Source: Thermoplasmatota archaeon
GTDB lineage: Archaea; Thermoplasmatota; Thermoplasmata; Halarchaeoplasmatales; Halarchaeoplasmataceae
Assembly: GCA_018334755.1 (NCBI GenBank)
Contig: JAGXLI010000014.1
Span: 1-38,271 of the forward strand
Reading direction: 5' to 3'
Length of the DNA stretch: 38,271 bases
Of the stretch, positions 4,269 to 35,602 are shown piece after piece; position 1 is the first letter of the stretch; each line of letters opens with the position of its first letter. A program made the translations under genes and the position numbers. A model generated the notes under the pieces. It was not told the DNA's origin. It searched no databases and saw only the letters and a program-made list of their open reading frames with translations.

Positions 4269-5630
4269 ATGATTGATCCAAACCGTCTTATGGAAGACTT
4301 ATTGGATAAGGGCGCGGAATATTGTGATATCAGAAAAGAAGAATGGGACAGGATGTCAGTAACTCTGAAGGACGGCGAGATAGACAAGATAAGCCAGGGT
4401 GGTGAGGAAGGAGCTATTGTCAGAGTTCTTTACAAGAATGGATGGGGATGTGTAGGAACATCAAACCTTGATGACATAAAAGAGGCGTCTGAGCGAGCCC
4501 TTTCGATGGCTAAGAGCAGTGACGAGTTCAAAAATGAAGAGACAGGTCTCGCAGAAACGGAGATACAAAAAGATGATGTTAAGATGCCGATGGACGAAAA
4601 TCCCTTGGATGTGGATACGGAAGAAAAGATCTCCTTGGTGAGAGACCTGGAAGATAAGATAAACAGAGATTTTGTGAGTTCCACCGAAGTGAGGTACGGA
4701 GAAACCGTGGTCGAAAAGGAGATAACCACGAGTGAAGGTACCCAGGTGATGATGGAGATCCCAAGGGTGATAACTTATCTGATAATAACCGGAGAGAGCG
4801 ACACGATCCAGAGAGCTACGGAAGGGGCAGGAGGAACGGGAGGTTACGAACTGACGGAGAAGGCTTATGAGAAAGTCGATGTAGTTACAGAAAGGTTGAA
4901 GAAACTTCTTGAAGCCGATACACCTCCAAGCGGATCTCTTCCTCTGATAATGGATCCATCTCTTGCGGGTGTTTTCGTACACGAAGCCTTCGGCCACGCT
5001 GCTGAAGGAGATCTGTTATCCAGCGGCAACAGCTGCCTGAAAGGCAAGCTGGGTGAGAAGGTCGCGGCTGATGGAGTCAATATAAAAGATGATCCGACCT
5101 TCAAAGGATACGGCCAGTTCCCCTACGATGACGAAGGTACAAAAGCCAAAAACAGGGTACTGGTGAAAGACGGGGTACTCAACGACTTCATCCTGGACAG
5201 GGAGAGCGCCTGGAAACTCGACATGGAGCCCAACGGCGGCGCTAGAGCTGAAGACTTCAGGGTTAAACCGTTGGTGAGGATGAGCAACACGATAATCGAA
5301 CCGGGTGACCTGAAATTTGAAGAGTTGATCGAAAAAGTAGATAAAGGGATATATGCTAAATCCTCCAGTGGGGGGCAGGTCAGCACGGCTGAAGGCACCT
5401 TCCAGTTCAATGCCCAGGAAGGTTATCTCATAGAGGACGGCGAGATCGTCAAACCTCTTAGAGATGTGAGCTTCAACGGTTTTACGTTGGAAACGCTTCA
5501 GAATATCACCGGGATATCTGATGATTTCGAAGCCGGTATAGGACATTGCGGTAAAGGGCAGACGGCATCGGTCAGTCATGGAGGACCACACATGTTGATC
5601 TCCGACGTAACGGTTGGTGGTAGAGAATGA
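4269..5630 (+). CDS. tldD: TldD-type zinc metalloprotease subunit (first pair)
   Basis: A 453-residue TldD-family protein. In bacteria TldD and TldE (PmbA) form a heterodimeric protease that cleaves unfolded or modified peptides, such as microcin B17 precursor and CcdA. The zinc-binding HExxxH is present as HEAFGHAAEGD, with the first His near residue 238. Other family landmarks are EGTFQFNAQEGYLIEDGEIVKP-like strands and the C-terminal CGKGQTASVSHGGPHM. The stop overlaps the start of the partner gene by four bases (ATGA), so the two are translationally coupled. The start at 4269 is near-leaderless behind a TATA box at about 4224-4238. The substrate in this organism is unknown. Confidence 0.92.
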   Translation: MIDPNRLMEDLLDKGAEYCDIRKEEWDRMSVTLKDGEIDKISQGGEEGAIVRVLYKNGWGCVGTSNLDDIKEASERALSMAKSSDEFKNEETGLAETEIQKDDVKMPMDENPLDVDTEEKISLVRDLEDKINRDFVSSTEVRYGETVVEKEITTSEGTQVMMEIPRVITYLIITGESDTIQRATEGAGGTGGYELTEKAYEKVDVVTERLKKLLEADTPPSGSLPLIMDPSLAGVFVHEAFGHAAEGDLLSSGNSCLKGKLGEKVAADGVNIKDDPTFKGYGQFPYDDEGTKAKNRVLVKDGVLNDFILDRESAWKLDMEPNGGARAEDFRVKPLVRMSNTIIEPGDLKFEELIEKVDKGIYAKSSSGGQVSTAEGTFQFNAQEGYLIEDGEIVKPLRDVSFNGFTLETLQNITGISDDFEAGIGHCGKGQTASVSHGGPHMLISDVTVGGRE

Positions 5631-6970
5631 GCGACCAGATAGTCGAAAGTGTAAAGACGGCGATAGAAGAGATAGATAAAAGAGGTCTAAAGGGCGATGT
5701 TTACGCCCTCAAAGAAAAAGCGATCGGACACAGTATCAAGAAAGGAGAACTGAGCGAGAGTTCGGGTTACGATGATATAGGTCTGGGTATACGGGTCATA
5801 AAAGACGATAAGATCGGCTTTGGATACTGCGTACCTGGAAAAGAAGAGAAAGGAGTAAAACACGCGATCGAGCTTTCTGATTTCTCGGAAAGATTAGACC
5901 TAGAACTTCCTTCAGAAAAGGATACACCTGGGGTCGAAGTTTACGATGAAAAAGTAAGAGACGTGATAGAGGACTCTGAGGGTGCGGAATTGACTCAAAA
6001 GATGATAGACGGGAGCTCTTCAGTGGCTGACGATATAACCCCGACTAGAGGGGGATTAAACGTATCCATGGGGACCAGAGTAATCGGAAATACAGAGGGC
6101 TTGTTCTTGAAAGAGAAAGGATCTTCAATCTTTGGCTCTGTTACGGTCTCCATCCCTCAAGAGGAGACATCGCTTCAGGCGACCGAGATAGGGGTCGATT
6201 GCAAGTTGGACCTTGACTTTGAAGAGATAGGTGGTAAGGCAGCGAACAAAGTGGACTCTATCCGATCCAGTTCTGAAAGGTTGAGCGGCGATCATCCGGT
6301 GGTGATAAGCCCGTATGCGATAACTCAACTGATCGGTTTTGGATTGATCCCAGCTATAAACGGAGAAAATGTGAGAAAAGGAAAATCCGTGTATCAAGGA
6401 AAGATAGGAGAAAAAGTGGCTTCGGAAGACCTCCTTATGAAGGACGATCCCACCGTAGACTGGGGCGTCGGCAGCGGGGCTTTCGACGACGAAGGCGTGA
6501 TAAGTAAAGATACACCTATCATCTCGGACGGTATCCTCAAAAATTTCATCTATGATCTAAAAGAAAGCGCTAAGGACGAAAAAGAAAGTACAGGGAACGG
6601 CGTGAGAAGCGGGTTTAAATCACTTCCTGAGACTACCCACAGGAACATCGTATTGGAAGGCGAAGGAAAGGATCGTGATGATCTGATGCCGGATAAAGGT
6701 ATCTACGTGGACAACGTTCTGGGAGCTCACACCGCAAACCCGGTCAGCGGCGATTTCAGCGTAGTAACGAATCCGGTTTGGCGGGTCGAAGATGGAGAAA
6801 GAAAAGGCAGGATCGACGGTCTCATGATCTCTGGGAACTTGCCGGAAATTTTGAAATCGATCGAGTTGGCCGACGACCGAAAAAAGTGCTTCTTGCAGAT
6901 AGGGAGCAGAAGACTCATCATAGAAACGCCGACCGTCCGTTTGAACGACGTGACCATCTCCGGAAAATGA
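5627..6970 (+). CDS. pmbA: TldE/PmbA-type partner subunit (first pair)
   Basis: A 447-residue PmbA/TldE-family protein, the non-catalytic partner of TldD. It shares the TldD fold but has no HExxxH in the corresponding region, where VVISPYAITQLIGFGLIP is found instead. The segment KIGEKVASEDLLMKDDPT and the later FDDEGVISKDTPIISDGIL correspond to the family's conserved core. It starts within the last codons of tldD. The family role is to complete the cage-like protease dimer in the cytoplasm. It ends 24 bases before the convergent end of pgk. Confidence 0.9.
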   Translation: MSDQIVESVKTAIEEIDKRGLKGDVYALKEKAIGHSIKKGELSESSGYDDIGLGIRVIKDDKIGFGYCVPGKEEKGVKHAIELSDFSERLDLELPSEKDTPGVEVYDEKVRDVIEDSEGAELTQKMIDGSSSVADDITPTRGGLNVSMGTRVIGNTEGLFLKEKGSSIFGSVTVSIPQEETSLQATEIGVDCKLDLDFEEIGGKAANKVDSIRSSSERLSGDHPVVISPYAITQLIGFGLIPAINGENVRKGKSVYQGKIGEKVASEDLLMKDDPTVDWGVGSGAFDDEGVISKDTPIISDGILKNFIYDLKESAKDEKESTGNGVRSGFKSLPETTHRNIVLEGEGKDRDDLMPDKGIYVDNVLGAHTANPVSGDFSVVTNPVWRVEDGERKGRIDGLMISGNLPEILKSIELADDRKKCFLQIGSRRLIIETPTVRLNDVTISGK

Positions 6971-6994
6971 GACCCGTAGGATAACAAACGAAGA

Positions 6995-8254
6995 TCAAAT
7001 ACTTTCTTTCTTGAATTCGCGATATGAACGGTTCAGGGCCTTCACACCAGACAATTTCTTCCCCGCAAGAAAGTTGATACATGAACCGCCGCCGGTCGAG
7101 ATGTGATCGATCTCATCTTCCAGGTCAAGGTTCTCTAAAACGGCGGTACTGTGCCCCCCGCCGATGATAGAATAAGCGTTTGAATGAGCTATAGCTTTAA
7201 ATATTTCGGTAGTCCCTATAGAAAAATCATCTATCTCGAAAGCTCCCGCCGGTCCGTTCAAGACCACCAACGAGGCATCTTCTATCTCCTTTCTATACTC
7301 CATTATCGTATCTAGACCGATATCGAATATCGGATGGTCGGAAGGCAGCGCGTCTAAAGGTATTCCGTTCCTTTCTCCTTCCTCGTTCAGAACAACATCT
7401 TTGGGTAACTTTATCCTGTCCGGCCACTTCTCAAGTAGTTCTTCAGCATCCTCTACGATCTTTTCGTATCCTGGAAGTTCATCTTCCAAGAACTCCCTAT
7501 TGCCCTCTCCTAGGTCATGTCCTGAGGCCATCAGAAAGATGTTCGCGGTAACACCCCCGGTGAGTATCTTGTCTATCTTCCCGCCTGAAAGCATGTGCTC
7601 GGCGACCTCTATAGAATCGTCGGCCTTCATACCCCCTAGGAAAGCAAGTTTTGGTGAGCGGTCCATCGTGAACGCTTTTCCCATGTTCTTCAATTCACTC
7701 TCCATGACCCTACCGGCCATGCAGGGAACAACGCTAGAAAAGCCCACTAATGTTGGCTGTGCCCTGTGAGCCGCAGCGAACGCGTCGTGAACAAAAAAGT
7801 CGATCTCCTGGCTCAATTTTTTTACGATATGTGTGTTCTCGTGTTTCTCCCAATCACTTTCACCTTTAAGATAAGTCTCTTCGGCAAAGAATCTAGCGTT
7901 CTCGAGTAAAAGAATATCTCCTCTTCTCATCTCCCTGATCTTCTTTAAAGCGTGCTTTTCAAAGAGCCCATCCACATATTCTACTTCTTTTCTCAGGAGT
8001 TGAGAGAGTCTTTCAGCGTGAGGTTCAAGAGAAGTGTAGTCGTTCTTACCCGGTCGGCTCTGGTGGGCCACTATTATCAATCTAGTATCGCCGAGGTCCC
8101 GGATAGTATCTATGTGGCTTTTGATACGATGATCGTCAAGGATCCTTCCGGATTCTGGATCGAGTGGTGAATTGATATCTACTCTCAATAATACCGTCTT
8201 GCCCCTCAGATCGAAGTCGTCGAGGGTGAAGTACTCCTCACCGGGATATGGCAT
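6995..8254 (-). CDS. pgk: Phosphoglycerate kinase
   Basis: A 419-residue enzyme of glycolysis and gluconeogenesis, which moves a phosphate between 1,3-bisphosphoglycerate and ADP in the cytoplasm. Family landmarks in order: LLRVDINSPLD near the N-terminus, the substrate-binding HQSRPGKNDYTSLEPHAERL, AAHRAQPTLVGF, FLGGMKADDSIEV, LNGPAGAFE, GGGHSTAVLE and the C-terminal STGGGSCINFLAGKKL. The length fits archaeal PGK. A TATA box on the minus strand at 8290-8281 lies about 32 bases before the ATG, so the mRNA is nearly leaderless. The gene sits between two TldD/TldE operons with which it has no known functional link. Confidence 0.96.
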   Translation of the reverse strand: MPYPGEEYFTLDDFDLRGKTVLLRVDINSPLDPESGRILDDHRIKSHIDTIRDLGDTRLIIVAHQSRPGKNDYTSLEPHAERLSQLLRKEVEYVDGLFEKHALKKIREMRRGDILLLENARFFAEETYLKGESDWEKHENTHIVKKLSQEIDFFVHDAFAAAHRAQPTLVGFSSVVPCMAGRVMESELKNMGKAFTMDRSPKLAFLGGMKADDSIEVAEHMLSGGKIDKILTGGVTANIFLMASGHDLGEGNREFLEDELPGYEKIVEDAEELLEKWPDRIKLPKDVVLNEEGERNGIPLDALPSDHPIFDIGLDTIMEYRKEIEDASLVVLNGPAGAFEIDDFSIGTTEIFKAIAHSNAYSIIGGGHSTAVLENLDLEDEIDHISTGGGSCINFLAGKKLSGVKALNRSYREFKKESI

Positions 8255-8280
8255 CTTATCGGGTCGGGATTAAGGCTTGA

Positions 8281-8337
8281 GGTTATAAATTTTTCTTTTG
8301 CGTTTTTAGTGGATTTTCTTGATAACTTATTTATATC
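8281..8337. promoter_or_regulatory. Divergent promoter region, pgk and second tldD
   Basis: Two separate TATA-like boxes are visible. One reads ATTTATAACC on the minus strand (8290-8281), serving pgk. The other reads ACTTATTTATATC on the plus strand (8325-8337), serving tldD. Each is about 30 bases from its start codon, predicting leaders under ten bases. The plus-strand box also rules out a start at 8309 for the downstream gene. Confidence 0.6.
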
Positions 8338-8365
8338 GGGAGGTTGTTTGTATCACGGTGCAAGC

Positions 8366-9805
8366 ATGCGGGACCTTGTCGATTTTGGGATAGAAAAGTT
8401 AGAGAGGGAAGATGTGAGATACGGTGACATTCGACTATCTGAAATAGAGACAGAAGTGATCAACGTCAAAAATGGCGCGGTCGAAGCTATCAAGAGCAGC
8501 GAAAGCAGGGGCTACGGGATCAGAGTGATAGATGGAGGATGGGGATTTGCATCCTCGGCAGATCTCAGCGAGAAGGGTATCGAAGAGACGATCAAGAGAG
8601 CTAAGAAGATCGCAAGGGCTTCTTCCAAAGCTTCGGGGAAGATAGATATAAAGGATATAGAGGTCTTTGAAGATACTTATACAACGCCGTATGAGAAGGA
8701 TCCTTTCAAGGTCGAACTCGAGGAAAAATTGGATCTGTTGATGGAGGTAGACGATCGCTTAGATATAGACGATAAGATCAAGGTAAGAAAATGCAATTTC
8801 AACGCCTGGAAAACGGATAAGATCTTCGCGAGTACAGAAGGTGCGATGATCGAACAGGAACTCGTAAAAACGGGTGGAGGACTGAACGTGAACGTTTCAG
8901 ACGGCGAAGACACTCAAAAAAGAAGCTATCCCAATGCGTTCGGAGGGGATTTTCATTCCAGCGGCTACGAATTTTTTGAATCTTTAGATCTTCTGGGGAA
9001 TGCGGAAGAAACTGCGCAGGAAGGAGTAGATCTTCTAGATGCGGAACAGTGCCCGGAAGGAGAGATGGATATCATACTGAACACCAATCAATTGGCTCTC
9101 CAGGTCCATGAGAGTGCCGGTCATCCAACCGAACTAGACCGTGCCCTCGGAACCGAGGCGAGCTACGCTGGGACCAGCTTCCTGACCCCGGACAAGCTGG
9201 AAGATTTCAGATACGGAGCGGAAAACGTCAATATAGTCTCTGACGCCACGGCACAAGGCGGGTTGGGAACTTTTGGATATGATGACGAGGGAGCTAGAGC
9301 AAAAAAAATAGATCTGGTAAAAGACGGTCTTTTCGTCGGCTACCAGGCCTCCCGAGAGGGAGCGGCGGAAGTCGGCGTCGATGTCAGCGGTAATATGAGG
9401 GCTGACGGCTGGGAAAATCTACCCATCGTGAGGATGACGAATATCAACCTGGAGCCGGGTGACTGGACCAAGGACGAGATCGTAGAAGAAACCGATAGAG
9501 GGATAATATTCGACGGTATAAAGAGCTGGAGCATAGACGACAAGAGGCTGAACTTCCAGTTCGGAACTGAGGCGGGATACCTTGTAGAGGACGGAGAGAT
9601 CACGGAACTCATCAAGAATCCGACCTATACCGGGATAACTTATGAATTTTGGAAGAGATGTGACGCTATCGCCGGAGAAGAAGACTGGAGATTGCACGGT
9701 GTACCGAACTGCGGAAAGGGAGAACCTCCCCAAACTATGCAGGTCGGACACGGCTGTGCACCCTCTCGATTCAGCGATATCAGAGTGGGGGTGGGAGAAT
9801 GGTAG
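8366..9805 (+). CDS. tldD: TldD-type zinc metalloprotease subunit (second pair)
   Basis: A 479-residue second TldD-family protein. The zinc motif is HESAGHPTELDR, first His near residue 248. It keeps the fold markers EGTEASYAGTSFL-like loop, FGYDDEGARAKKIDLVKDG and EAGYLVEDGEITE. It is clearly diverged from the first copy (HESAGH against HEAFGH), so this is an old duplication and not a recent one. The ATG at 8366 was chosen because the TATA box lies at 8325-8337, downstream of an in-frame start at 8309. The 3' end overlaps the partner gene by seven bases. A separate substrate from the first pair seems likely but is inference. Confidence 0.92.
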   Translation: MRDLVDFGIEKLEREDVRYGDIRLSEIETEVINVKNGAVEAIKSSESRGYGIRVIDGGWGFASSADLSEKGIEETIKRAKKIARASSKASGKIDIKDIEVFEDTYTTPYEKDPFKVELEEKLDLLMEVDDRLDIDDKIKVRKCNFNAWKTDKIFASTEGAMIEQELVKTGGGLNVNVSDGEDTQKRSYPNAFGGDFHSSGYEFFESLDLLGNAEETAQEGVDLLDAEQCPEGEMDIILNTNQLALQVHESAGHPTELDRALGTEASYAGTSFLTPDKLEDFRYGAENVNIVSDATAQGGLGTFGYDDEGARAKKIDLVKDGLFVGYQASREGAAEVGVDVSGNMRADGWENLPIVRMTNINLEPGDWTKDEIVEETDRGIIFDGIKSWSIDDKRLNFQFGTEAGYLVEDGEITELIKNPTYTGITYEFWKRCDAIAGEEDWRLHGVPNCGKGEPPQTMQVGHGCAPSRFSDIRVGVGEW

Positions 9806-11169
9806 GAACTAGAGAAGATTTTGAGCGGGCTACAGATCAAATTTTAGATGATGCCGAAGCGGACGAAGTCGAGATAAGGATATCAAAAAATGATACCGCC
9901 CTGACGAGATACGCTAACTCCCGCATCCATCAGAACATCGGGCAAAAGGACGTCAATATCTCGATAAGAGCCGTCTTTGGAAAGAAGATAGGTTCCGCCA
10001 CAACCAATTCCCTTGAAAGTGAAGCTATAAAGGAATGTCTCTCAAGAGCGGAGACAATCGCCAAACATCAGAGAGAGGATGCAGATTTTAAAGGTCTACC
10101 GGAGCCCAAAGAGGGAAGAAGAAGCCATGATAATTTCGTGGAAAAAACAAAAACCTTTTCGCCTGATGAAAGGGCGGAGAAGGTAAAAGAGATCATCGAT
10201 ATGGCGAAGGACGAAGGAATCGACAGAGTCTATGGCGCCTTCAAAACGGAAGCCCAGAACCTATATTTAGCCAACTCGAACGGCGTCGAAAATTTCTCTA
10301 GATTGACTTCCTCGAAACTGACCACCACGGCCATAGCCGATTGGGAAAATGATCAGGGATTTGGATGGGGTGAAAAGTGTTCTGCAAATGTGGAAGATAT
10401 AGACCACTTAGAGGTAGGAAGGACCGCGGTAGAAAAGGGTCTGAACAATCTGGATCCTAAAAAGATCGATCCCGGCGAGTATGACGTGGTACTTGAACCG
10501 TTAGCTGTCAAGAGCATCTTACAATATATGGACATGATGGGGTTCAGCGCGAGGAAGGTCCAGGAAGAGAGAAGCTTCATGAAAGGTAAATTCGGTGAAC
10601 AGATCATGGACGAAAGGGTGAATATCTATGACGATGCTTTAGATCAAGATATGATCGGTTATCCCTTCGATTACGAGGGCGTGCCCAAACAGAGAGTGGA
10701 CATAATAAAGGACGGAGTGGCAAACGAAGTTGTTTACGACTCCTACACCGCGGGAAGAGATGAAGAGGATAAAGAGTCGACCGGTCACGCTCTTCCAATG
10801 CCGAGTCCGATGAGCCCGATGGCGTTGAACCTTTTGATGGATACCGGAGAGCAATCACAACAAGAGATGATAGAGGAAACAGAAAAAGGTATCCTGGTAA
10901 CTCGATTCAACTACTGCAGGCCGGTGCATCCGGTCAAAGGTATATTGACTGGCCTTACAAGGGACGGTACCTGGCTTATCGAGGACGGCGAGATAAAACA
11001 TCCTCTGAAAAATCTCAGGTTTACGCAGAACCTGATCGACGCTTTCGATAATATCGAGGGGATAGGAAAAGAAAGAGAACTCTTCGCCATGGGCTATCTT
11101 CCAGCCTATTTCGCCGCTCCAGCACTGAAGATACCTGATTTCCAGTTCACGGGTTCAACAGAATTTTAA
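9799..11169 (+). CDS. pmbA: TldE/PmbA-type partner subunit (second pair)
   Basis: A 456-residue PmbA/TldE-family protein paired with the second TldD. No HExxxH is present; the matching stretch reads VVLEPLAVKSILQYMDMMGF. Core markers include KFGEQIMDERVNIYDDALD, GYPFDYEGVPKQRVDIIKDG and the C-terminal TGLTRDGTWLIEDGEIKHPL. The Shine-Dalgarno sequence GGGGGTGGGAGA lies inside the end of tldD, and the seven-base overlap indicates coupling. An enrichment in Met-Pro around residues 330-350 (ALPMPSPMSPMALN) is unusual but lies in a loop-like stretch. Confidence 0.9.
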   Translation: MVGTREDFERATDQILDDAEADEVEIRISKNDTALTRYANSRIHQNIGQKDVNISIRAVFGKKIGSATTNSLESEAIKECLSRAETIAKHQREDADFKGLPEPKEGRRSHDNFVEKTKTFSPDERAEKVKEIIDMAKDEGIDRVYGAFKTEAQNLYLANSNGVENFSRLTSSKLTTTAIADWENDQGFGWGEKCSANVEDIDHLEVGRTAVEKGLNNLDPKKIDPGEYDVVLEPLAVKSILQYMDMMGFSARKVQEERSFMKGKFGEQIMDERVNIYDDALDQDMIGYPFDYEGVPKQRVDIIKDGVANEVVYDSYTAGRDEEDKESTGHALPMPSPMSPMALNLLMDTGEQSQQEMIEETEKGILVTRFNYCRPVHPVKGILTGLTRDGTWLIEDGEIKHPLKNLRFTQNLIDAFDNIEGIGKERELFAMGYLPAYFAAPALKIPDFQFTGSTEF

Positions 11170-11212
11170 ACTTGGTCATATTTCCATGCCGATACACGGG
11201 TATGGCTAAACC

Positions 11213-11554
11213 ATGGCTAAAAAGACTCTAGAACATCTAAGCATAAAGAGAGCGGAAGGTATCCTAACGAAAACCCTAGGTCTGATGTTCAAAAAAAATG
11301 TAGACTATGGACTACTGATCCCTTTCAGAAATGAGAGCGCTAAGATAAAGATACATTCTCACTTCGTCTTTTTCTCTTTTCATGCCATATTTTTAGATAG
11401 TGAAAAAAGGATAGTGGACGTTAAAAAAAATATTTCGCCATTCAGTGGACAGATCTCCCCAGATAAACCTGCAAGATACGTTCTCGAGGTCCCCGCCGAT
11501 AAGATCGATATCGATGAAACTGATCTTAGTATCGGAAGAAAATTAGAGTTATGA
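11213..11554 (+). CDS. DUF192 family protein
   Basis: A 113-residue protein of the DUF192 (UPF0127) family, whose function is unknown. The recognisable parts are LGLMFKKNVDYGLLIPF near residues 23-39, a variable strand region, FHAIFLDSEKRIVDVKKNISPF, and the near-invariant PARYVLEVPA at about residues 87-96. The usual Trp/Met-rich 'MWMKNT' loop is changed to HSHFVFFSFHA. No signal peptide is seen, although many bacterial members are exported. It begins 43 bases after the second tldE stop, possibly as the last gene of that operon. Confidence 0.8.
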   Translation: MAKKTLEHLSIKRAEGILTKTLGLMFKKNVDYGLLIPFRNESAKIKIHSHFVFFSFHAIFLDSEKRIVDVKKNISPFSGQISPDKPARYVLEVPADKIDIDETDLSIGRKLEL

Positions 11555-11580
11555 AGAGAGATACTGCAGATCTAAAGAGT

Positions 11581-12633
11581 TCAGGACAGTTCTTTGACTC
11601 CCTCGGTGATCAACTCTATCAGTTTCAAAACGTCCTTCCAATCTCCACACTCCACCGTAGAATGAGAATACTTGACAGGGACGCCTATCGAGACGGCCAA
11701 ACATCCGGACTCTTGAAGAGCCATGCCGTCGGTAGTACCTCCAGTCACTCCGTACTGGTACGGTATCCCTTTCTCTTCAGCCACCTCTTTGAAATGCTCT
11801 ACCATCTTTGGTGAAGATATCGCTCTAGTATCTACCATCCTGAGAACTGGTCCTTCGCCGAACTTTATCGGCTTGTAGAATTCCTCTATCCCCGGCATAT
11901 CTGTGGTCGTGTAAGTGTCAAGAGCGATTACGTACTCCGGGTCTCTCGTGTTGGCTACCACTTTCGCTCCTCTCAGTCCTATCTCTTCCTGAACGCTCCA
12001 GATCATGGATGGATCGACATCTAGTTTCTCATCCTTGAGATGCTTCAAGACCTCTAACAGGGCGTAAGAACCGATCCTGTTGTCTAAACCTCTCCCTGAG
12101 ATTATTTCACCTTTGAGCCTTCTCAGCTCCTTGTCAAAAGTTATCGGATCTGGAACGTCGATACCCAACTCTTCTACCTCTTCTTTTGAATCTGCTCCTA
12201 CATCGACGTGAGTCTTTGTCCAGGGAGTCACTTCATCGTCATCGCCTTCACCCGTCCTCAGATGAGGGGGTCTATGACCTATCACCCCGTTGATCGGACC
12301 TTTATCTGTATGGATGGTCACCTGTCTTCCGGGAAGCAGAGGGTCGGGAACACCTCCGATCTTCTTTATCCTCAGATAACCGTTGTCTTCTATATTGGAT
12401 ACCACTAGTCCGATCTCGTCCATATGGGCAACAAGCGCGACTTCCGGTTTCCCCGTTTTTCTTTCATAGATCAGATTCCCTATGTTATCTTCTCTAAGAT
12501 CATCTAAATCTTCGATCTCCACATAATCAGCGATCAAGCCTCTTATCTTATCCCTTATCGGGTCCTCGTAACCGGAAACTCCAGGCGTTTTTAAAACTTG
12601 CTCAAATACATCTAATCCTTTTAGTTTTTTCAT
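11581..12633 (-). CDS. M42 family aminopeptidase (TET-type)
   Basis: A 350-residue zinc aminopeptidase of family M42. These enzymes usually form dodecameric tetrahedral (TET) shells and trim peptides from proteasome-type proteolysis in the cytoplasm. The metal and catalytic residues are in place: His70 in VAHMDEIG, Asp in SGRGLDNRIG, the Glu pair in WSVQEEIGLRGA, Asp in VIALDTYTT and the late His in KYSHSTVE. GVTGGTTDGMALQ is typical. Residue preference cannot be read. The ATG at 12633 has a perfect AAGGAGGT Shine-Dalgarno sequence. The gene is on the same strand as gcvT, 58 bases downstream of it, with an origin-box-like element in the gap. Confidence 0.92.
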   Translation of the reverse strand: MKKLKGLDVFEQVLKTPGVSGYEDPIRDKIRGLIADYVEIEDLDDLREDNIGNLIYERKTGKPEVALVAHMDEIGLVVSNIEDNGYLRIKKIGGVPDPLLPGRQVTIHTDKGPINGVIGHRPPHLRTGEGDDDEVTPWTKTHVDVGADSKEEVEELGIDVPDPITFDKELRRLKGEIISGRGLDNRIGSYALLEVLKHLKDEKLDVDPSMIWSVQEEIGLRGAKVVANTRDPEYVIALDTYTTTDMPGIEEFYKPIKFGEGPVLRMVDTRAISSPKMVEHFKEVAEEKGIPYQYGVTGGTTDGMALQESGCLAVSIGVPVKYSHSTVECGDWKDVLKLIELITEGVKELS

Positions 12634-12656
12634 CTTTTTACCTCCTTAGTAGGGGA

Positions 12657-12681
12657 GGGGCCCCTTTGTTTCGAGTGGAAC
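12657..12681 (-). other. Origin-recognition-box-like element B
   Basis: On the minus strand the element reads GTTCCACTCGAAAC, then AAAGGGGCCCC. This has the layout I recall for archaeal Orc1/Cdc6 origin recognition boxes: a TTCCAC...GAAAC dyad followed by a run of G. It lies between gcvT and the M42 gene. It matches element A at 15847 over about 34 bases, in opposite orientation. No orc1/cdc6 gene is in the window, so origin function is not established. Confidence 0.6.
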
Positions 12682-12691
12682 CTCTAATCTT

Positions 12692-13792
12692 CTAGATGAA
12701 CGGAGGGTTCGTGACTTCGGCCTCTCTTTTATCGTCTCTTATCTCTACCTGAACCTCAGTTCCCTCTTCCTGATAACCGGGATCGAGATAGCCGAGGGCT
12801 ATCCCCTCCTTCAAGGTCGGAGATCTGGTTCCACTGGTAACTTCACCTATCTTTTCGTCTCCATCGAAGATATCATAACCGTGCCTCGGGATTCCCTTTT
12901 CCTTCATCATCAAACCTTTCAAGAGCTGAAGATCTTCATCCTTCTTCTCTTCTAGTTTTTCCTTTCCTATGAACTCGTGATCCCATTCGATCGCGTCTTC
13001 AGCCCATCCCGTTTCGAGAGTGGTTCTAGATTCATCGAAGTCCTGGCCGGAGAGAAGGAATCCGAATTCTATCCTCAAAGTATCTCTAGCTCCCAGGCCG
13101 CATCTAGTAGGCGAATCTTCGAGTTCCTGGAGCTGTTCCCACAACTCGACGCCGGCATCGTTCGGCAGTGCGATCTCGAAGCCGTCTTCTCCCGTATAAC
13201 CGCTTCTCTGTACTATCGGAGTGTCGGACATGGGCCAGTCTGAATCGAATTCGTCCATGATCTCATCGTTTATAGGTATCTGTTTAGCCTGGAAAAATCC
13301 GATCTCTGAAACGTCTTCGTCCGCCAGTTCCTGAAGCAGCTTTTCAGCATCTGGACCTTGAAGAGCAAGCATAACGGTCTCTTCAGTCAGATCCGTGATA
13401 TAGTCCTCTCCACCTTTCTCTGCGAACCAGTTATAGATCTCCTCGTTGTTTCCCGCATTAGGAACGATATAACAGGAATCTTCAGAAAGTTTAGTTACTA
13501 TAGTATCGTCCAAGATCCCTCCATCTTCGTTCAACATGTGAGCATATTTTAGTTGGTTGACTTCGGAGTCTACGATGTCCATGGTGCAGTGTTCGCTAAT
13601 GAATTCGATCGCGCCGTCTCCTTCGAGATATATCTCCCCCATATGCGATACATCGAAGATCCCGGCGGCCTCTCTTACAGATTCATGTTCTTCGTTTATA
13701 CTGGTAAATTTAAGAGGCATCTCCCAGCCTCCAAAATTTGTCATCCTAGCTCCTGCATCAGTATGTTTCGAGTAAAGAGCAGTTTCTTTCAT
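12692..13792 (-). CDS. gcvT: Glycine cleavage system T protein (aminomethyltransferase)
   Basis: A 366-residue aminomethyltransferase. In the glycine cleavage complex it moves the aminomethyl-derived C1 unit from lipoyl-GcvH to tetrahydrofolate (or an archaeal pterin) and releases ammonia. Markers in order: FGGWEMPLKF, FDVSHMGEI, NEDGGILDDTIV, YIVPNAGNNEEIYNWF, LALQGP, QRSGYTGEDGFEIALP, GLGARDTLRIEFG and GEVTSGTRSPTL. It is strongly acidic, as expected for salt adaptation. A TATA box lies about 29 bases before the ATG, so the message is nearly leaderless. GcvH and GcvP are not in the window. The divergent neighbour is a dihydrolipoamide-dehydrogenase-like flavoprotein, the fourth type of component of this complex. 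Confidence 0.94.
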   Translation of the reverse strand: MKETALYSKHTDAGARMTNFGGWEMPLKFTSINEEHESVREAAGIFDVSHMGEIYLEGDGAIEFISEHCTMDIVDSEVNQLKYAHMLNEDGGILDDTIVTKLSEDSCYIVPNAGNNEEIYNWFAEKGGEDYITDLTEETVMLALQGPDAEKLLQELADEDVSEIGFFQAKQIPINDEIMDEFDSDWPMSDTPIVQRSGYTGEDGFEIALPNDAGVELWEQLQELEDSPTRCGLGARDTLRIEFGFLLSGQDFDESRTTLETGWAEDAIEWDHEFIGKEKLEEKKDEDLQLLKGLMMKEKGIPRHGYDIFDGDEKIGEVTSGTRSPTLKEGIALGYLDPGYQEEGTEVQVEIRDDKREAEVTNPPFI

Positions 13793-13812
13793 ATAATCAG
13801 TATCGAGTCATT

Positions 13813-13878
13813 CCTTAAAAATTTTTATCTTTATTTTTTCTTTTTTTGAGGGATGAGGGAAAAAATTTACTAATATAG
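13813..13878. promoter_or_regulatory. Divergent gcvT / flavoprotein promoter region, very AT-rich
   Basis: The minus strand carries GATAAAAATTTTTAAGG (13829-13813) as TATA for gcvT. The plus strand carries AAAAATTTACTAATATAG (13861-13878) as TATA for the flavoprotein gene, whose ribosome site GGAGTG is at 13901-13906. Between them is an almost pure T/A block. The same block lies between the two origin-box-like elements and is a candidate unwinding region if those are functional. Confidence 0.5.
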
Positions 13879-13911
13879 AGACCTTAGACCCCTTTAGTTG
13901 GGAGTGAAAGA

Positions 13912-15324
13912 ATGGATGAATATGACCTGATTTCGATAGGCACTGGCTCTGCTATGAGTATCGTGACTCAAGCACTACGTGACAAACCTGATCTAGATGT
14001 AGCCGTGATAGAAAATAAAGCAGCTGGGGGGATCTGCCTTACCAGAGGATGTATTCCTTCGAAGATGCTGCTCTATCCTGCAGAAGTTGTAAACCACATA
14101 AATGAAGCGGACCGCTTCGGGATAGATGCCGAGATAAACTCGATAGACTTTAAACAGATCATGGACAGGATGAGAGAGCATGTCAGGCCGGAGAGTGAAC
14201 AGATCAGAAAAAATTTAGAGAAGAGTGACGACCTAGATTTTTATCATGAAAACGCAAAGTTCATCGATGACTATACATTAAAGGTCGGAAAGAAAACGAT
14301 CAAGGGTGACAAGATAATCTTGGGTATAGGATCCAGGATCTCAAAACCTGCGATAGATAATCTCGAAAAAGTGGGTTATCTGACGAGTGAAACCCTTCTA
14401 GATTTAGAGGAACTTCCGGAGAGCGTGATAGTGATCGGAGGTGGATATATCGCCGCAGAATATGGCTACTTCCTTTCGATGATGGGATCAGATGTTACGA
14501 TAGTCGGTAGAAATCCACAATTTGTTCCCTCTGAAGAGGAGAACGTATCGAATGTACTCCAGAAGAAGTTGTCAAAATATATGGATATACATACTGGATT
14601 CGAGGTGGAAAAGGTAGGTAAAAAAGGAAACAAAAAGGCAGTGATAGCGGAAAACGCGGATGGAGAAAAGAGAAAAGTCAAAGCTTCAGAGATCCTTTTA
14701 GCGGCTGGGAGAAGATCGAATGCGGACATCCTAGAACCTCATAAGAGCGGGATCAAAACGGACGAAAAAGGATGGATCAAAGTTAACGGGTCCCTGGAGA
14801 CCACGAAATCCGATATCTGGGCTTTGGGTGACGCGACAGGAGAGCATATGTTCAAGCACGTCGCAAACTATGAAGCAGAAGTGGTCTATGAGAACGCGTT
14901 CGGTGAAGGAGTAAGAGAGGTTGACTATCACGCGGTACCACATGCCGTATTCACCCACCCCCAGGTAGCTTCGGTCGGTATGAAAGAAAAGGAAGCTAGA
15001 CAGAATCATGAGGTCCTGATAGGTTATTACCCTTTTGAAAACACGGCTAAAGGATCGGCCATGGATATAGAGGATTACTTCGTCAAAGTGATCGTAGAAG
15101 AATCAACATACAGGATATTAGGAGCCCATATAGTCGGACCCCACGCTTCCATCTTGATCCAGGAGATAATCGACCTGATGAACACTCCAAACCAGAATAT
15201 GACACCTATCTTCAAGGGTATGCATATCCATCCATCACTGAGCGAAGTGGTCGAAAGAGCGTTCTCCAACCTACATTCTCATGACCACGAGTCTCATTCT
15301 CACGAACATGATGAGCACGAGTGA
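13912..15324 (+). CDS. Dihydrolipoamide dehydrogenase-like disulfide reductase with His-rich tail
   Basis: A 470-residue FAD-dependent pyridine nucleotide-disulfide oxidoreductase. The FAD loop is IGTGSAMS, the redox pair is Cys42/Cys47 in GGICLTRGCIPSK, the nucleotide-binding loop is VIGGGYIAAEYG, and the C-terminal active-site base motif is HIHPSLSEVVERAF. Position beside gcvT favours the lipoamide dehydrogenase (L protein) of glycine cleavage. Two details point elsewhere. The acidic residue that normally ends the second strand of the NAD fold is replaced in VTIVGRN, by Gly followed by Arg, suggesting NADP use. The IGTGS opening also resembles mycothione reductase. The last 17 residues alternate His with Asp, Glu and Ser, a likely metal-binding tail. 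So L protein versus low-molecular-weight thiol reductase is open. Confidence 0.82.
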   Translation: MDEYDLISIGTGSAMSIVTQALRDKPDLDVAVIENKAAGGICLTRGCIPSKMLLYPAEVVNHINEADRFGIDAEINSIDFKQIMDRMREHVRPESEQIRKNLEKSDDLDFYHENAKFIDDYTLKVGKKTIKGDKIILGIGSRISKPAIDNLEKVGYLTSETLLDLEELPESVIVIGGGYIAAEYGYFLSMMGSDVTIVGRNPQFVPSEEENVSNVLQKKLSKYMDIHTGFEVEKVGKKGNKKAVIAENADGEKRKVKASEILLAAGRRSNADILEPHKSGIKTDEKGWIKVNGSLETTKSDIWALGDATGEHMFKHVANYEAEVVYENAFGEGVREVDYHAVPHAVFTHPQVASVGMKEKEARQNHEVLIGYYPFENTAKGSAMDIEDYFVKVIVEESTYRILGAHIVGPHASILIQEIIDLMNTPNQNMTPIFKGMHIHPSLSEVVERAFSNLHSHDHESHSHEHDEHE

Positions 15325-15377
15325 AAAAGTAGATAGAAGAAAAAATTTAAGTAGAGTTCCTAGGATTCACTTCAAAT

Positions 15378-15761
15378 ATGAGTCTAAAAACTACTCTAAA
15401 GAAGCACGAAGTCTTGATATCGGTGATCATTCTTCTCCTAGCAGCTTACATATTCTTGATAGGGCTCTTCGGGACCGTCCTAAGCGATTATTCACCCGGG
15501 ATGTTCACCAAACTCAACCAAGCTATAGGAGCCTGGAAATGGTGGTTACTCGTAGTTGGAGGACTACTCCTTTTTATCTTCTCGCTGATACTGTTCTTCC
15601 GATACAGGAATTTGAAGGAATTCAAAGACCTTTACAACACGGAGAGTAAGAGCAAATTTAGAAAAAATATCGCTCAAATAGAGAAACTAGCGATGAAGTT
15701 GGGCCCGGAGTATGAAGACAAGGTGATCGAAAAGGAAGAGGAGTATAACATCGACCGGTAG
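15378..15761 (+). CDS. Small membrane protein with two transmembrane segments
   Basis: A 127-residue protein of no function known to me. Two hydrophobic helices are clear, at about residues 13-34 and 54-74. They are separated by a short loop (DYSPGMFTKLNQAIGAWKWW) and followed by a charged cytoplasmic-looking tail that ends KEEEYNIDR. It may belong to the archaeal family catalogued as DUF3198, but that is from memory and uncertain. A TATA-like AAAAAATTTAAG lies about 35 bases before the ATG, so it probably has its own promoter although it starts 53 bases after the flavoprotein stop. Confidence 0.7.
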   Translation: MSLKTTLKKHEVLISVIILLLAAYIFLIGLFGTVLSDYSPGMFTKLNQAIGAWKWWLLVVGGLLLFIFSLILFFRYRNLKEFKDLYNTESKSKFRKNIAQIEKLAMKLGPEYEDKVIEKEEEYNIDR

Positions 15762-15846
15762 TGATTTATTAAAGTTCAGCTGACACGAATTCTGATATAA
15801 TTTATCGAATAAAATTTGCTTTTGGCTCGGATACTTCGCTGCCCTA

Positions 15847-15873
15847 GTTCCACTTGAAATGCAGGGGCCCCCC
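15847..15873 (+). other. Origin-recognition-box-like element A
   Basis: The plus strand reads GTTCCACTTGAAAT, then GCAGGGGCCCCCC, in a gene-poor, AT-flanked stretch between the membrane protein and tRNA-Gly. The dyad plus G-run matches the archaeal origin recognition box pattern as I remember it. It repeats element B at 12657 in inverted orientation, about 3.2 kb away, with the dyad ends facing each other. The adjacent 15775-15830 stretch is AT-rich. Confidence 0.6.
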
Positions 15874-15909
15874 TCTACCCTATCACATAACCTAAGTCGA
15901 TCATGAAAA

Positions 15910-15983
15910 GCGGTTGTGGTCTAGACTGGTTAGGACCCAAGCTTCCCAAGCTTGTAGCCCGGGTTCAAATCCCGGCAACCGCA
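15910..15983 (+). tRNA. tRNA-Gly (CCC)
   Basis: A 74-nt intron-less tRNA. The acceptor stem GCGGTTG pairs fully with CAACCGC and A is the discriminator base. The anticodon stem-loop is CAAGC-TTCCCAA-GCTTG, so the anticodon is CCC. The T arm is CCGGG-TTCAAAT-CCCGG. CCA is not encoded. It ends 14 bases before the convergent end of the TPR gene. Confidence 0.96.
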
Positions 15984-15997
15984 TCCAAAAAACACGA

Positions 15998-18937
15998 TCA
16001 GCCCTCCTCTTCCAGCATCCGTTTTGCTTCCTGATACGTCGGTTCCAACTCCACGGCCCTCTCCACCGATTCTTTCCATCCATCATCCCCCGACCTTTTT
16101 TGAGCTATCCCTTTATTATACCAACTGACGGGATTCTCTCTATCTATGCTTATAGCCCTTTCGAACGTATCGAGAGCGGCTTCCACCAAGTCTCTTTCGA
16201 GCTGGCAAAATCCGATATTATTGAGTATATTCACATCATCAGATTTTAAACTCAAAGCGGTCTCAAAAGCTGTCAAGGCCTCTCCGTACCTCTCCATTTG
16301 ATGTGCAGCGCACCCGAGATTGTTATAGTACAGAGCGACGTCCTTCTCGGTAGCATCTCTAAAGAGCTCTAGGCTTTTCTCATAATCTCTATTCTTATAG
16401 TAAAATACTCCTAGGAGATTTAGGAGGTCTACACAACTTTCGCTGCCATCGAGCTCTTCAAGTGTTTCTATACCTTCTTCCCACCCCTGAGACTCCACCT
16501 CGCATCTTGCCTTTGCCATGATAAAATCGATTATAGGATTGGTTTCCAATTCTTGGGCATTTTGATAACAACTGAAGGCAGAGGAAAATTTACCCGTTCT
16601 TCGCATGGTCTCCCCTCTTCTCTCCCAAATGGTCAACATATCTTCTAAAAATTCGTCCTCTTCATTTTCTTCTATAGATTCTATCGCCTTCCTGTACTTC
16701 TCTAGATGGTAATATAATTCTTCAAGGTTCATCTCGGCTATCGTGGAGGGCAGAGCATCTATGAACATATCTTCTGCAGAAACCTGATCTTTTTTTTCAA
16801 AGAAGGAACATCCAATCATGTTCAAAGCCGTCTGATCATCCATCTTTGGAACGAGGTCCAATGCCTTGTCGGTCTCATCCATCCTCCACAGCAATAACCC
16901 TTCTTTTATCCTTCTCCTGTCATCCCCCAGCGTTTCAGATTCTAGTTCACTTTCTCCCTTTTTTCCACCACCTTTCCTTTTTTTGAGCCTGTAAACTTTC
17001 TCTTCCAATTCCTTTTTCCTTTCCTTTATCCCCTTCAATTTCTTGCTTTTTTCTTTCAACTTGGATTTTAAGTGGTGGATTATCTCATCCTTTTTCTCGA
17101 TCTTTTCTTCCAATTTTTTTCTACTTTCGAGTTCCTTTTTCAGATCTTTTAGGTCGCTTTCTAGATCCTTTTTTTCGTCCTTCAATCTGTCTATCTTTTC
17201 TTCCTTTTTTCTCACCTTGTTCTTTAGATTTTCCCGCTCGCCAACAAGGTGTTTTATGTCCTCTTCCTTTTCTTCGATATCCTTTTTAATCTCCTCTTTC
17301 TCGGCCCTTTCACCTTCCATCTCAGCAACTTTGCTTTCTAATTCGGCCTTTCCTTCTTTCAACCCTTGGATCTTATCTTTTTTCTCTTCCAATTTCTTTT
17401 TAAAATCATCCTCCCTTTCTTTCAATCCGCCGACCTTCTCTTCTTTGCCCCTGATCTCCTCTTCTATCTTCTTCTCTTTCTTTTCTTTCTCCTTCCTCGT
17501 TTTTTCTAAGATCTCCTTTAAATCATCTATCTCTTTCTCTTTCTTTTCAAGCGTCGTCTCCAGCTCACCTTTCTCGGATCTCAGTTCCTCCAATTCCTCT
17601 TTTTTATCTTCTATCTCTAGTTCAAATTTTCCTCCACCTTTTTGTCTGATCTTAACTTTATTTTCATCGCTCTTCTCAACCCCGGATTCTATTTTTTCTT
17701 CGATCTCTTCAGAAGTTACACTCCTTTGGGAACTCTCAACGACTGAACCTTCACTGCCCTTTTTCCCTAATTTTTCCTGCAGGATAAACTGCAGTTCTTG
17801 AGCACGGTCATGATTTGGATTTAGTTGAAGACAGCGCTGGATCTTTTTCCATGCTTTCTCATACCTTCCGAGTTGGTACAAGTAAGCGCCATTGATATAG
17901 TGGTATTCACCTTTCTTCGGTCTATTCTCGATCAGCTTTTCCGAGACCGCTAGAGCCTGTTCTATTTTTTCTAAGTTTTCGAAGACTAGAGCTTTGTTCA
18001 ATAGGGCCTCTTCGAAATCAGGATCTATGGAGAGGGCGCTGTTGATAGAATCCAAGGCCTCTTTGTATTCTCCCTTTCTTAGATGACAGAGGCCTTTATT
18101 GTTCCAGGCCTCTGTATCTTTAGGTTCTAGTTCCAAGATCTTCTCAAAGCTGAGTATCCCTTCGTCATACATACCTAGGTCGAGGAGCGTTCTTCCTTTG
18201 CCCCTCCAGGCCTCGATATAGTCTTCGTCATGATCTAGGGCTTTATCGTAGTTATCCAGAGCTTCTTCCTTTTTTCCTTCTCTGGAATAAGATTCTGCCA
18301 GATAGTACCATGCCTCTAGATTCTCTGGATCCATATCTAAAGAGTCCTGAAAAGCCCGTATAGCCTCTTCTAGACTGTTCTTTTCGAAGTAGATCTTCCC
18401 TTTTTTGAGAAAACCTATCGAAGGACTGTCTCCTTCCGATATAGCTTCCTCATAATAGTCCAGAGCTTTTTCGTGATCTCCTTTGGAAAGGTATCTATCC
18501 CCCTGTTCGAGGAATTCGTTCTCTTCTTCTTCGACCTCCTCTTCACGTTTCTCGCTCTTAACATCGGATAACAGATTATATTTTTTCAGCAGACGGTAAA
18601 ATTTTCCCCCACTCGCTATCTCAACGTCCATCTCTTCGGGAAGATCGGCATCGCTGGTATTTGTTGTCAATAAGAGTCCCTCGGTCCCGCCGGAGATCAT
18701 CTTTTCAACGCGCTCTGTCTCGACGGGGATCGCCTCTCCTGAGCGGGTACATTTTATGACGTAATCTTTGACTTCATCCTCTCTCTCTATCGTTCCTTCT
18801 GCAATAAAATCTCCTGAGACGGATTTGATGTTAGAAATATTGAACCCCATATTCTCAAGTAAATCTATACAGAGTCCTTCGAATTTTTTACGGCTCATCC
18901 TCTCTAGAGTTCCCAAGCACTCTCTTTGGTCGAGCAA
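15998..18937 (-). CDS. Mrr-like nuclease-fold / TPR / coiled-coil protein, 979 aa
   Basis: Residues 15-125 resemble a restriction-endonuclease-like (Mrr) domain: FEGLCIDLLENMGF, Asp43 in GDFIAEG, and Lys62 in YVIKCTR where nucleases have Q/V-x-K. A block of tetratricopeptide repeats follows at about 145-395, including SIGFLKKGKIYFEKNSLEEA, NLEAWYYLAESYSREGKKEE and TEAWNNKGLCHLRKGEYKEA. A long Lys/Glu coiled coil occupies about 430-675, and a second set of TPRs fills the C-terminal 300 residues. The start is a TTG with AGGTGA four bases upstream. The role is unknown; TPR and coil parts suggest a scaffold, and the N-terminal fold could bind or cut nucleic acid, or be inactive. It is the last gene of a minus-strand run. 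Confidence 0.85.
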   Translation of the reverse strand: MLDQRECLGTLERMSRKKFEGLCIDLLENMGFNISNIKSVSGDFIAEGTIEREDEVKDYVIKCTRSGEAIPVETERVEKMISGGTEGLLLTTNTSDADLPEEMDVEIASGGKFYRLLKKYNLLSDVKSEKREEEVEEEENEFLEQGDRYLSKGDHEKALDYYEEAISEGDSPSIGFLKKGKIYFEKNSLEEAIRAFQDSLDMDPENLEAWYYLAESYSREGKKEEALDNYDKALDHDEDYIEAWRGKGRTLLDLGMYDEGILSFEKILELEPKDTEAWNNKGLCHLRKGEYKEALDSINSALSIDPDFEEALLNKALVFENLEKIEQALAVSEKLIENRPKKGEYHYINGAYLYQLGRYEKAWKKIQRCLQLNPNHDRAQELQFILQEKLGKKGSEGSVVESSQRSVTSEEIEEKIESGVEKSDENKVKIRQKGGGKFELEIEDKKEELEELRSEKGELETTLEKKEKEIDDLKEILEKTRKEKEKKEKKIEEEIRGKEEKVGGLKEREDDFKKKLEEKKDKIQGLKEGKAELESKVAEMEGERAEKEEIKKDIEEKEEDIKHLVGERENLKNKVRKKEEKIDRLKDEKKDLESDLKDLKKELESRKKLEEKIEKKDEIIHHLKSKLKEKSKKLKGIKERKKELEEKVYRLKKRKGGGKKGESELESETLGDDRRRIKEGLLLWRMDETDKALDLVPKMDDQTALNMIGCSFFEKKDQVSAEDMFIDALPSTIAEMNLEELYYHLEKYRKAIESIEENEEDEFLEDMLTIWERRGETMRRTGKFSSAFSCYQNAQELETNPIIDFIMAKARCEVESQGWEEGIETLEELDGSESCVDLLNLLGVFYYKNRDYEKSLELFRDATEKDVALYYNNLGCAAHQMERYGEALTAFETALSLKSDDVNILNNIGFCQLERDLVEAALDTFERAISIDRENPVSWYNKGIAQKRSGDDGWKESVERAVELEPTYQEAKRMLEEEG

Positions 18938-25691: not shown

Positions 25692-26978
25692 ATGGCAGAA
25701 GAAGGCTATAATCCATATAAGATGGCCCAGGAACAGTTCGATAGGATAGCTGAAAAGTTAGATCTCGACGAGGGGTTGAAAGATCTGCTGAGGGAGCCGA
25801 AAAGAGAATATCGATTCAATCTTCCCGTGAAGATGGATGACGGCAGTACGGAAGTGTTCAACGCTTTCAGGGTCCAGCACAACGACGCGCTAGGCCCGTG
25901 TAAAGGAGGCATCAGGTTCCACCCGGAAGAGACGGTCGATACCGTAAGAGCTCTTGCGATGTGGATGACCTGGAAGACCGCCGTCGCGGACATACCTCTC
26001 GGCGGCGGGAAAGGAGGCGTGATCTGTGATCCTCACGATCTTTCAGATAGAGAGCAGGAAAATATATGCAGGGAATACATCAAGGCGATAAACAAGAATA
26101 TAGGACCTCTTCAGGACGTTCCCGCTCCGGACGTGATGACCAGTCCTCAGCATATGCTGTGGATGATGGACGAATATGAGAACATACAGGGTGAAAAATA
26201 TCCAGGCGTGATAACTGGAAAACCCCAAGACATGGGAGGTTCTAAAGGTAGAACAGAAGCCACCGGCTACGGTTTGGTTTATCAGCTGAGAGAGCTTCTG
26301 AAAGAACTCGATAGAGATCCAAAAGATACAGTAGCTTCGATCCAAGGTTTCGGGAACGTGGCGCAGTATGCCGCCGAACTCTTCATCGAGTACGGCGGGA
26401 CCGTGGTTTCGGTATCCTGCTGGGACCAGGAGGATCAGAAAGCTTACAGCTACTATAAAGAAGACGGCATCGATCTTGAAGAGCTGAGGGGCATAACCGA
26501 CCGCTTTGGATCCGTAGATAAAAAGAAAGCGGAGAAGAAAGGTTACGAGCAACTGCCTGGGGATGATTGGTTGAAGCATGAAGTCGACGTTCTGATCCCG
26601 GCTGCTCTAGAAAACGCCATAACAGAAGATAACGTTAAGGATATACCCTCGGCAGTGGATATAATAATCTCGGGAGCTAACGGACCTATCACTCCGGAAG
26701 CGGACAATATGTTGGAAGACAGGGACATGATCGTCGTTCCCGATTTCCTGGCGAATGCAGGAGGAGTGACCTGCAGCTACTTCGAACAGGTACAGAGCAA
26801 CCAAAACTACTATTGGCCTAAGGACGAGGTTCTAGGAAAATTGGACAACAGCATGACCGACGCCTTCTACGAGGTATGGGAGCTCGCCCAGAAAAGGGAC
26901 GTCAGGATGAGAGACGCGGCCTACATGATCGCTATTCAGAGGGTCGCCGAGGCCTGCGAAGCCAGAGGATGGGTATAA
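25692..26978 (+). CDS. gdhA: Glutamate dehydrogenase, archaeal type
   Basis: A 428-residue enzyme that interconverts glutamate with 2-oxoglutarate and ammonia, probably hexameric and cytoplasmic. Markers: [26 protein letters not shown] with the substrate-binding Lys, the catalytic Lys in [31 protein letters not shown], the nucleotide loop IQGFGNVAQYAA and ANAGGVTCSYFEQVQ. Length and motifs match the archaeal-type enzymes of about 420 residues. The stretch after the second coenzyme strand (VVSVSCWDQEDQ) differs from the usual SDSxGG, so coenzyme choice is not clear. The start has AAGGTGG seven bases upstream. It is followed after 22 bases by a PPDK_N-domain gene. Confidence 0.95.
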   Translation: MAEEGYNPYKMAQEQFDRIAEKLDLDEGLKDLLREPKREYRFNLPVKMDDGSTEVFNAFRVQHNDALGPCKGGIRFHPEETVDTVRALAMWMTWKTAVADIPLGGGKGGVICDPHDLSDREQENICREYIKAINKNIGPLQDVPAPDVMTSPQHMLWMMDEYENIQGEKYPGVITGKPQDMGGSKGRTEATGYGLVYQLRELLKELDRDPKDTVASIQGFGNVAQYAAELFIEYGGTVVSVSCWDQEDQKAYSYYKEDGIDLEELRGITDRFGSVDKKKAEKKGYEQLPGDDWLKHEVDVLIPAALENAITEDNVKDIPSAVDIIISGANGPITPEADNMLEDRDMIVVPDFLANAGGVTCSYFEQVQSNQNYYWPKDEVLGKLDNSMTDAFYEVWELAQKRDVRMRDAAYMIAIQRVAEACEARGWV

Positions 26979-29997: not shown

Positions 29998-30041
29998 ACA
30001 ACTCAAGGATTTTGAAGAAAAAGATGTAGAGGTCGGAAAAG

Positions 30042-34207: not shown

Positions 34208-35602
<1,395 letters not shown>

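Follow-up and report, generated by a model that had tools for sequence, protein, structure and literature searches.

The window analysed here, a stretch of 38,271 nucleotides, is the entire contig C105 of the 2.11-Mb genome of a Thermoplasmatota archaeon (112 contigs, 93% complete). It holds two archaeal origin recognition boxes (ORBs), predicted Orc1/Cdc6 sites, which we call ORB B and ORB A. They form an inverted pair at a distance of 3.2 kb with three genes between them, gcvT, a dld-like gene and the gene of a small DUF3198 membrane protein (Table 1). In the family of this archaeon the order of the locus is tldD, tldE, M42 peptidase, ORB, gcvT, dld, DUF3198, ORB, tRNA-Gly(CCC), TPR protein and pfkB. 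In the following, the window genome is G000, its relatives carry G-numbers and families carry f-numbers, f1 being the window family.

Table 1. Features of the locus around the two ORBs, in window coordinates.
Feature	Position	Strand	Description and support
M42 family aminopeptidase	11581..12633	-	Pfam Peptidase_M42; directly outside ORB B; syntenic in the family, also in f7, f11 and f16
ORB B (origin recognition box)	12656..12681	-	GTTCCACTCGAAACAAAGGGGCCCCT; 20-mer core 12661-12680; motif match, matrix, family conservation
gcvT, aminomethyltransferase	12692..13792	-	Pfam GCV_T, GCV_T_C; 3' end a few bases from ORB B
gcvT/dld intergenic region, AT-rich	13793..13911	.	GC 0.29; divergent promoters, possible non-conserved unwinding site
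dld-like pyridine nucleotide-disulphide oxidoreductase	13912..15324	+	Pfam Pyr_redox_2, Pyr_redox_dim; between the ORBs family-wide
DUF3198 small membrane protein	15378..15761	+	Pfam PF11433; similar to Thermoplasma acidophilum Ta0354 (1x9b)
ORB A (origin recognition box)	15847..15872	+	GTTCCACTTGAAATGCAGGGGCCCCC; 20-mer core 15848-15867; motif match, matrix, family conservation
tRNA-Gly(CCC)	15910..15983	+	ARAGORN, Rfam; directly outside ORB A; same place in the family

Both boxes fit the consensus TTCCAnnnGAAA...AGGGG with its dyad and G-string. A sequence-only reading of the window had already noticed two inverted elements 3.2 kb apart and had likened them to the Orc1/Cdc6 box; the motif search recovered both, and the identification agrees with the published archaeal ORB consensus CTTCCAGTGGAAACGAAAGGGGT and the Methanomassiliicoccales consensus GTTCCAGTGGAAATGG-AGGGGTA (PMC4153887, Table 2). 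With up to three mismatches allowed, the motif occurs in the window at ORBs A and B only, and 100 dinucleotide shuffles gave 0.00 matches. A position weight matrix built from class-wide ORBs, ORBs A and B among them, scores ORB B at 31.6 and ORB A at 32.2 of a maximum of 34; the window has no other site that scores 15 or more, and shuffled windows stay below 14 throughout. A third ORB-like site at 13889-13909 on the minus strand (3-4 mismatches, matrix score below 15, not conserved) is probably due to chance. Beyond the G-string, ORB B is extended by a C-tract, GGGGCCCCTCCCC, to about position 12648 and ORB A by GGGGCCCCCC to about 15877. The G-strings point outward, away from each other, so that the boxes do not face each other as had been supposed; this is the geometry of published oriC1 (PMC3936714). 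In oriC1 of Haloarcula hispanica, read along one strand, the G-string on the left appears as CCCCCC and that on the right as GGGGGGGG, so that both point outward from an AT-rich centre (PMC3936714).

Genome-wide there is one further good ORB, which lies at C89:7262-7282, shortly before the start codon of cdc6-1, and sites with two or three mismatches are no commoner than for a reversed control pattern. Many scattered copies without a skew shift at the locus, or denser clusters beside a cdc6 gene elsewhere, had been named beforehand as findings that would refute an origin; neither was seen, as the genome holds three good ORBs in all, with one of them at cdc6-1. Motif-like repeats on contig C64 were discarded, as they lack the G-string and belong to a long repeat-rich stretch that appears to be coding. 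The encoded Cdc6-1 is of the oriC1 type and, among solved structures, is nearest to Sulfolobus Cdc6-1 (2qby_A) and its Aeropyrum homologue (2v1u_A). Its gene is on contig C89 (5944-7233) and that of a second, more distant Cdc6 on contig C37, in keeping with the earlier remark that no cdc6 adjoins the locus. From their sequence, ORBs A and B would be expected to bind Orc1.

The pair is conserved in the family. We compared the synteny of the locus in 15 other family genomes, where contig ends and some insertions interrupt the order. Both ORBs are at the same place in 14 of the 15, i.e. in every one whose contig spans the locus; in G013, whose contig ends within it, the single ORB covered is present. 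The outer-to-outer span is 3029-3213 bp, and the pair has been kept while the intergenic sequence around it diverged. Beyond the G-string, a C-tract of the GGGGTCTCCCCC type marks 31/31 pair ORBs of the family versus 0/14 of its cdc6-1 ORBs. The two ORBs of one genome differ by 1.73 mismatches over 26 bp, compared with 3.43 for shuffled genomes (0 of 20,000 shuffles as low; kinship uncorrected), and the centres match within G007 (both AAC) and within G014 (both CAG). Because relatedness was left uncorrected, this resemblance supports, rather than proves, joint evolution of the two ORBs of one genome. The orientation of the enclosed 3-kb segment is fixed in all genomes compared, and a flip-flop inversion between the inverted repeats was rejected.

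An exact ORB search over 300 genomes of the class Thermoplasmata found ORBs in 150 of them, and the reversed control pattern gave almost none. Among the matches listed, neighbouring ORBs on the same contig form 43 outward, 6 tandem and 0 inward pairs with spacings of 1.0 to 10.4 kb; G028 and G047 add a spacing of 0.5 kb in which the partner ORB has one mismatch. That the spacings vary so widely suggests that the distance between the ORBs is under no strong constraint. The enclosed genes differ as well: cdc6-1 itself in f6 (e.g. G115 and G207), an HflX-type GTPase gene in f3 and f29, a gene of similar size in f30, f32 and f33, DUF3198 alone in f14, DUF3198 and the GTPase in f18, and RadA, tRNA endonuclease and others in f4. 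The f4 pairs (G018 and G057) lie away from both cdc6-1 and DUF3198; for these two genomes the search with two mismatches extends to the matches listed only. They are outward pairs at 6 kb (L238 in G018, 4579-10649) and at 10.4 kb, the widest spacing (L239 in G057, 4740-15117). Some ORBs are inside coding sequence, namely in an RFC-like gene in G018 and in gcvT in G055. In G064, a one-contig relative, ORBs are found at 1,287 and 1,937,524. The extensions at the cdc6-1-linked origins L252-L255 and L257 are asymmetric: the ORB distal to cdc6-1 has a C-tract (GGGGTCCCCC) and the proximal one often a second G-tract (GGGGTGGGG).

The gene content of the locus links it to the initiator gene in other families. 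In 24 genomes from 16 families, an ORB is found no more than about 2.5 kb from DUF3198, and in the class DUF3198 with ORBs usually stands beside cdc6-1. The order is signal-peptidase-like gene, cdc6-1, ORB, DUF3198, gcvT and M42 in G021 (f7); M42, gcvT, DUF3198, ORB and cdc6-1 in f11 (G025, G045, G053); and M42, gcvT, DUF3198 and cdc6-1, with the ORB just beyond, in G036 (f16). The window genome has kept M42, gcvT and DUF3198 with the flanking ORBs, and its cdc6-1 is on another contig beside a signal-peptidase-like gene. This separation holds for the entire window family; contig ends set its minimum at about 18 kb in the window genome and at about 50 kb in G004, G005 and G009. An ORB pair with DUF3198 and with cdc6-1 elsewhere is found in f1 and in at least four further families, f12 (G026), f14 (G028, G047), f18 (G038, G063) and f21 (G055). 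In G055, cdc6-1 and the pair are 176 kb apart on one 284-kb contig with ORBs at the pair only, and the pair makes up the sole good ORB set among the matches listed for f14 and f18.

The best explanation of the window locus, on sequence grounds, is that it represents the cdc6-1 origin neighbourhood without cdc6-1. Ancestrally, cdc6-1 was probably directly outside one ORB, with DUF3198 (often together with gcvT and M42) beside or between the ORBs. A rearrangement in the window family would have parted cdc6-1 and its leader ORB, which is probably autoregulatory, from the two ORBs with DUF3198 and gcvT. In the cdc6-linked origins of f29, f30, f32 and f33, the side of cdc6-1 often carries two ORBs in tandem; after a break between two such ORBs, one would remain with cdc6-1 and the other with the origin. 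DUF3198 itself is a candidate origin-associated membrane protein to which no function is assigned. Its match to Thermoplasma acidophilum Ta0354 also points to Thermoplasmata as the class of these genomes.

Because of the motif, its scarcity, its conservation, the outward orientation and the separation from cdc6-1, we think it likely, with some reserve, that the ORB pair is the oriC1-type origin of this archaeon, unlinked from its initiator gene and stretched around unrelated genes. The sequence-only reading had left the choice between an origin without an adjacent cdc6 and dispersed Orc1 sites of another role; the comparative evidence favours the former, whose activity is presumed. The history of rearrangement is an inference, as are Orc1 binding, origin firing and the unwinding site, which draw on established archaeal origin biology. 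Orc1/Cdc6-1, made from the distant gene, would bind the two ORBs, placing its AAA+ domain on the outward G-string in each case, and would recruit the MCM helicase, and two forks would leave in opposite directions. First unwinding may take place in the gcvT/dld gap, at each ORB separately or in a looped complex.

Several observations weigh against an origin at this place. Archaeal origins are described as having a short AT-rich element between their ORBs and as lying beside the initiator gene, a linkage on which predictions lean, and in Sulfolobus the ORBs fall within about 130 bp; such close spacing and an adjacent initiator gene are absent here. AT-rich stretches between the boxes, to which the sequence-only reading had pointed, do exist, but in the relatives no conserved AT-rich unwinding element was found between the ORBs. 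The gcvT/dld gap of the relatives varies from 52 to 130 bp and is promoter-like with a TTTAAA box, the gap before ORB A often has only 11-17 bp, and ORB B often starts a few bases from the gcvT stop codon. A conserved unwinding element in the AT-rich stretches is thus not supported. GC skew, proposed earlier as a check, gave a mixed result: the raw cumulative skew has its maximum here (five contigs), but this maximum follows gene orientation and is inconsistent at third codon positions, and the strand-corrected skew has no shift at the locus. All family genomes are fragmented assemblies. In G070, which consists of one contig, has a cdc6-linked pair and was sampled to about half, no clean shift was seen either, so that GC skew has no power here. 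Finally, the region upstream of cdc6-1 is AT-rich and conserved and has one ORB, so it looks origin-like and is the leading rival.

If the pair is the origin, it could consist of two half-origins or looped sites, where every ORB, together with its C-tract, loads helicase alone or after looping; within the origin reading we regard this variant as a doubtful one. Outward pairs at about 0.5, 1, 1.3-2.4, 3, 6 and 10.4 kb with differing gene content would suit it, as would ORBs right after stop codons or inside genes, where there is no room for a local AT-rich element. However, the Sulfolobus origin needs both ORBs and a central motif together within ~130 bp. A wider generalisation, which we put forward tentatively, would be that origins of the class are split, with outward ORBs over 0.5-10 kb, any genes between them and no fixed unwinding element. 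Such pairs would carry C-tracts in many lineages and, in several families, would work away from the initiator gene, and their ORBs might act as half-origins or by looping.

It seems unlikely to us that the active origin lies upstream of cdc6-1 and that the gcvT-dld pair is an Orc1 titration or regulation locus like datA or the region downstream of Haloarcula oriC2. The cdc6-1 upstream region (L033:7234-7522, contig C89 of the window genome) comprises about 280 bp of conserved AT-rich sequence, with an AT content of up to 0.85 over 60 bp. It has a conserved GTCTGACGAAAGCTTTTTTA in 16/16 family genomes and a recognisable ORB in 14/16, and titration through extra ORBs is documented in Haloarcula. 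On the other hand, the region has a single ORB, while the Sulfolobus and Haloarcula origins require both of two. In all 16 genomes a GTCTGACGAAA motif is followed by a T-rich tract, sometimes with a second copy (GTCATAC or GTCAGACGAAA), and the ORB is between this motif and the start codon. Because the motif resembles a promoter with B recognition element (BRE) and TATA box, with the ORB in the leader, the region is probably an autoregulated promoter and only possibly an origin. Moreover, cdc6-1 of f14 and f18 has no ORB with up to two mismatches nearby among the matches listed. A cluster of many initiator boxes as in datA is not present in the window, whose two boxes are few for titration and show strict origin geometry.

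That the ORBs are transcription signals, either terminators or 3' RNA elements of gcvT and dld-DUF3198 or Orc1 operators for these genes, is very improbable: both family ORBs do lie just 3' of a stop codon along transcription and their G-tract and C-tract could pair, but in other families the pair encloses different genes or sits inside coding sequence, no T-run follows the ORBs, they fold no better than shuffles, Rfam matched no family other than tRNA in the window, and the motif recurs at cdc6-1. A riboswitch or other RNA was likewise rejected, as the only Rfam match is tRNA-Gly.

Elsewhere in the window, two TldD/TldE-like (PmbA/TldD) gene pairs lie close together at 4269-6970 and 8309-11169, with a phosphoglycerate kinase gene (6995-8254, minus strand) between them. 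Beside tRNA-Gly, 15998-18937 (minus strand) encodes a protein of 979 aa with TPR and coiled-coil segments, whose N-terminus matches an Mrr-like nuclease domain. Two adjacent large proteins of 998 and 1051 aa, encoded at 27001-33197, have PPDK_N domains, and the second one has a nucleotidyltransferase domain as well; glutamate-dehydrogenase-like genes flank them at 25692-26978 and 34253-35602.

In the open-access literature, we found neither an origin mapping in this class nor any description of an ORB pair that is conserved, kilobase-spaced and apart from cdc6-1. According to a 2017 review, genetic data on initiation control existed only for Sulfolobales, Halobacteriales and Thermococcales (PMC5333045). 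Several families of the class studied here retain an ORB pair at kilobase spacing and away from cdc6-1. If such a pair is an origin, linkage-based predictions would fail for these families, and the maximal ORB distance that still allows firing would become testable, because nature supplies spacings of 0.5 to 10 kb.

Among known systems, the pair is most readily compared with the oriC1-type origins of Sulfolobus, Haloarcula and Haloferax, with which it shares the box motif, two inverted outward ORBs and the same Cdc6-1 type. The recurrent neighbours of these origins, HflX-type GTPase, cdc6 and signal peptidase genes, also recur in families related to that of the window. Unlike them, where the ORBs are ~100 bp apart around an AT-rich element, the window pair spans 3.2 kb around three genes, has no adjacent cdc6 and has a C-tract beyond the G-string. 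E. coli datA and the ORB-rich region downstream of Haloarcula oriC2 illustrate that initiator boxes at a locus need not be an origin; those loci carry many boxes, whereas the window has exactly two in a strict origin-like geometry. Closer in spacing are Methanomassiliicoccales, which by inference belong to the same class as the window genome. Both single ORBs apart from cdc6 and ORBs flanking it have been reported for them (PMC4153887), with kilobase ORB pairs as in the window: ORBs flank cdc6.1 in 'Ca. M. alvus' and lone ORBs occur in 'Ca. M. intestinalis' (PMC4153887; PMC5011839). Their pair encloses cdc6.1, whereas the window pair encloses gcvT, dld and DUF3198, with cdc6-1 on another contig.

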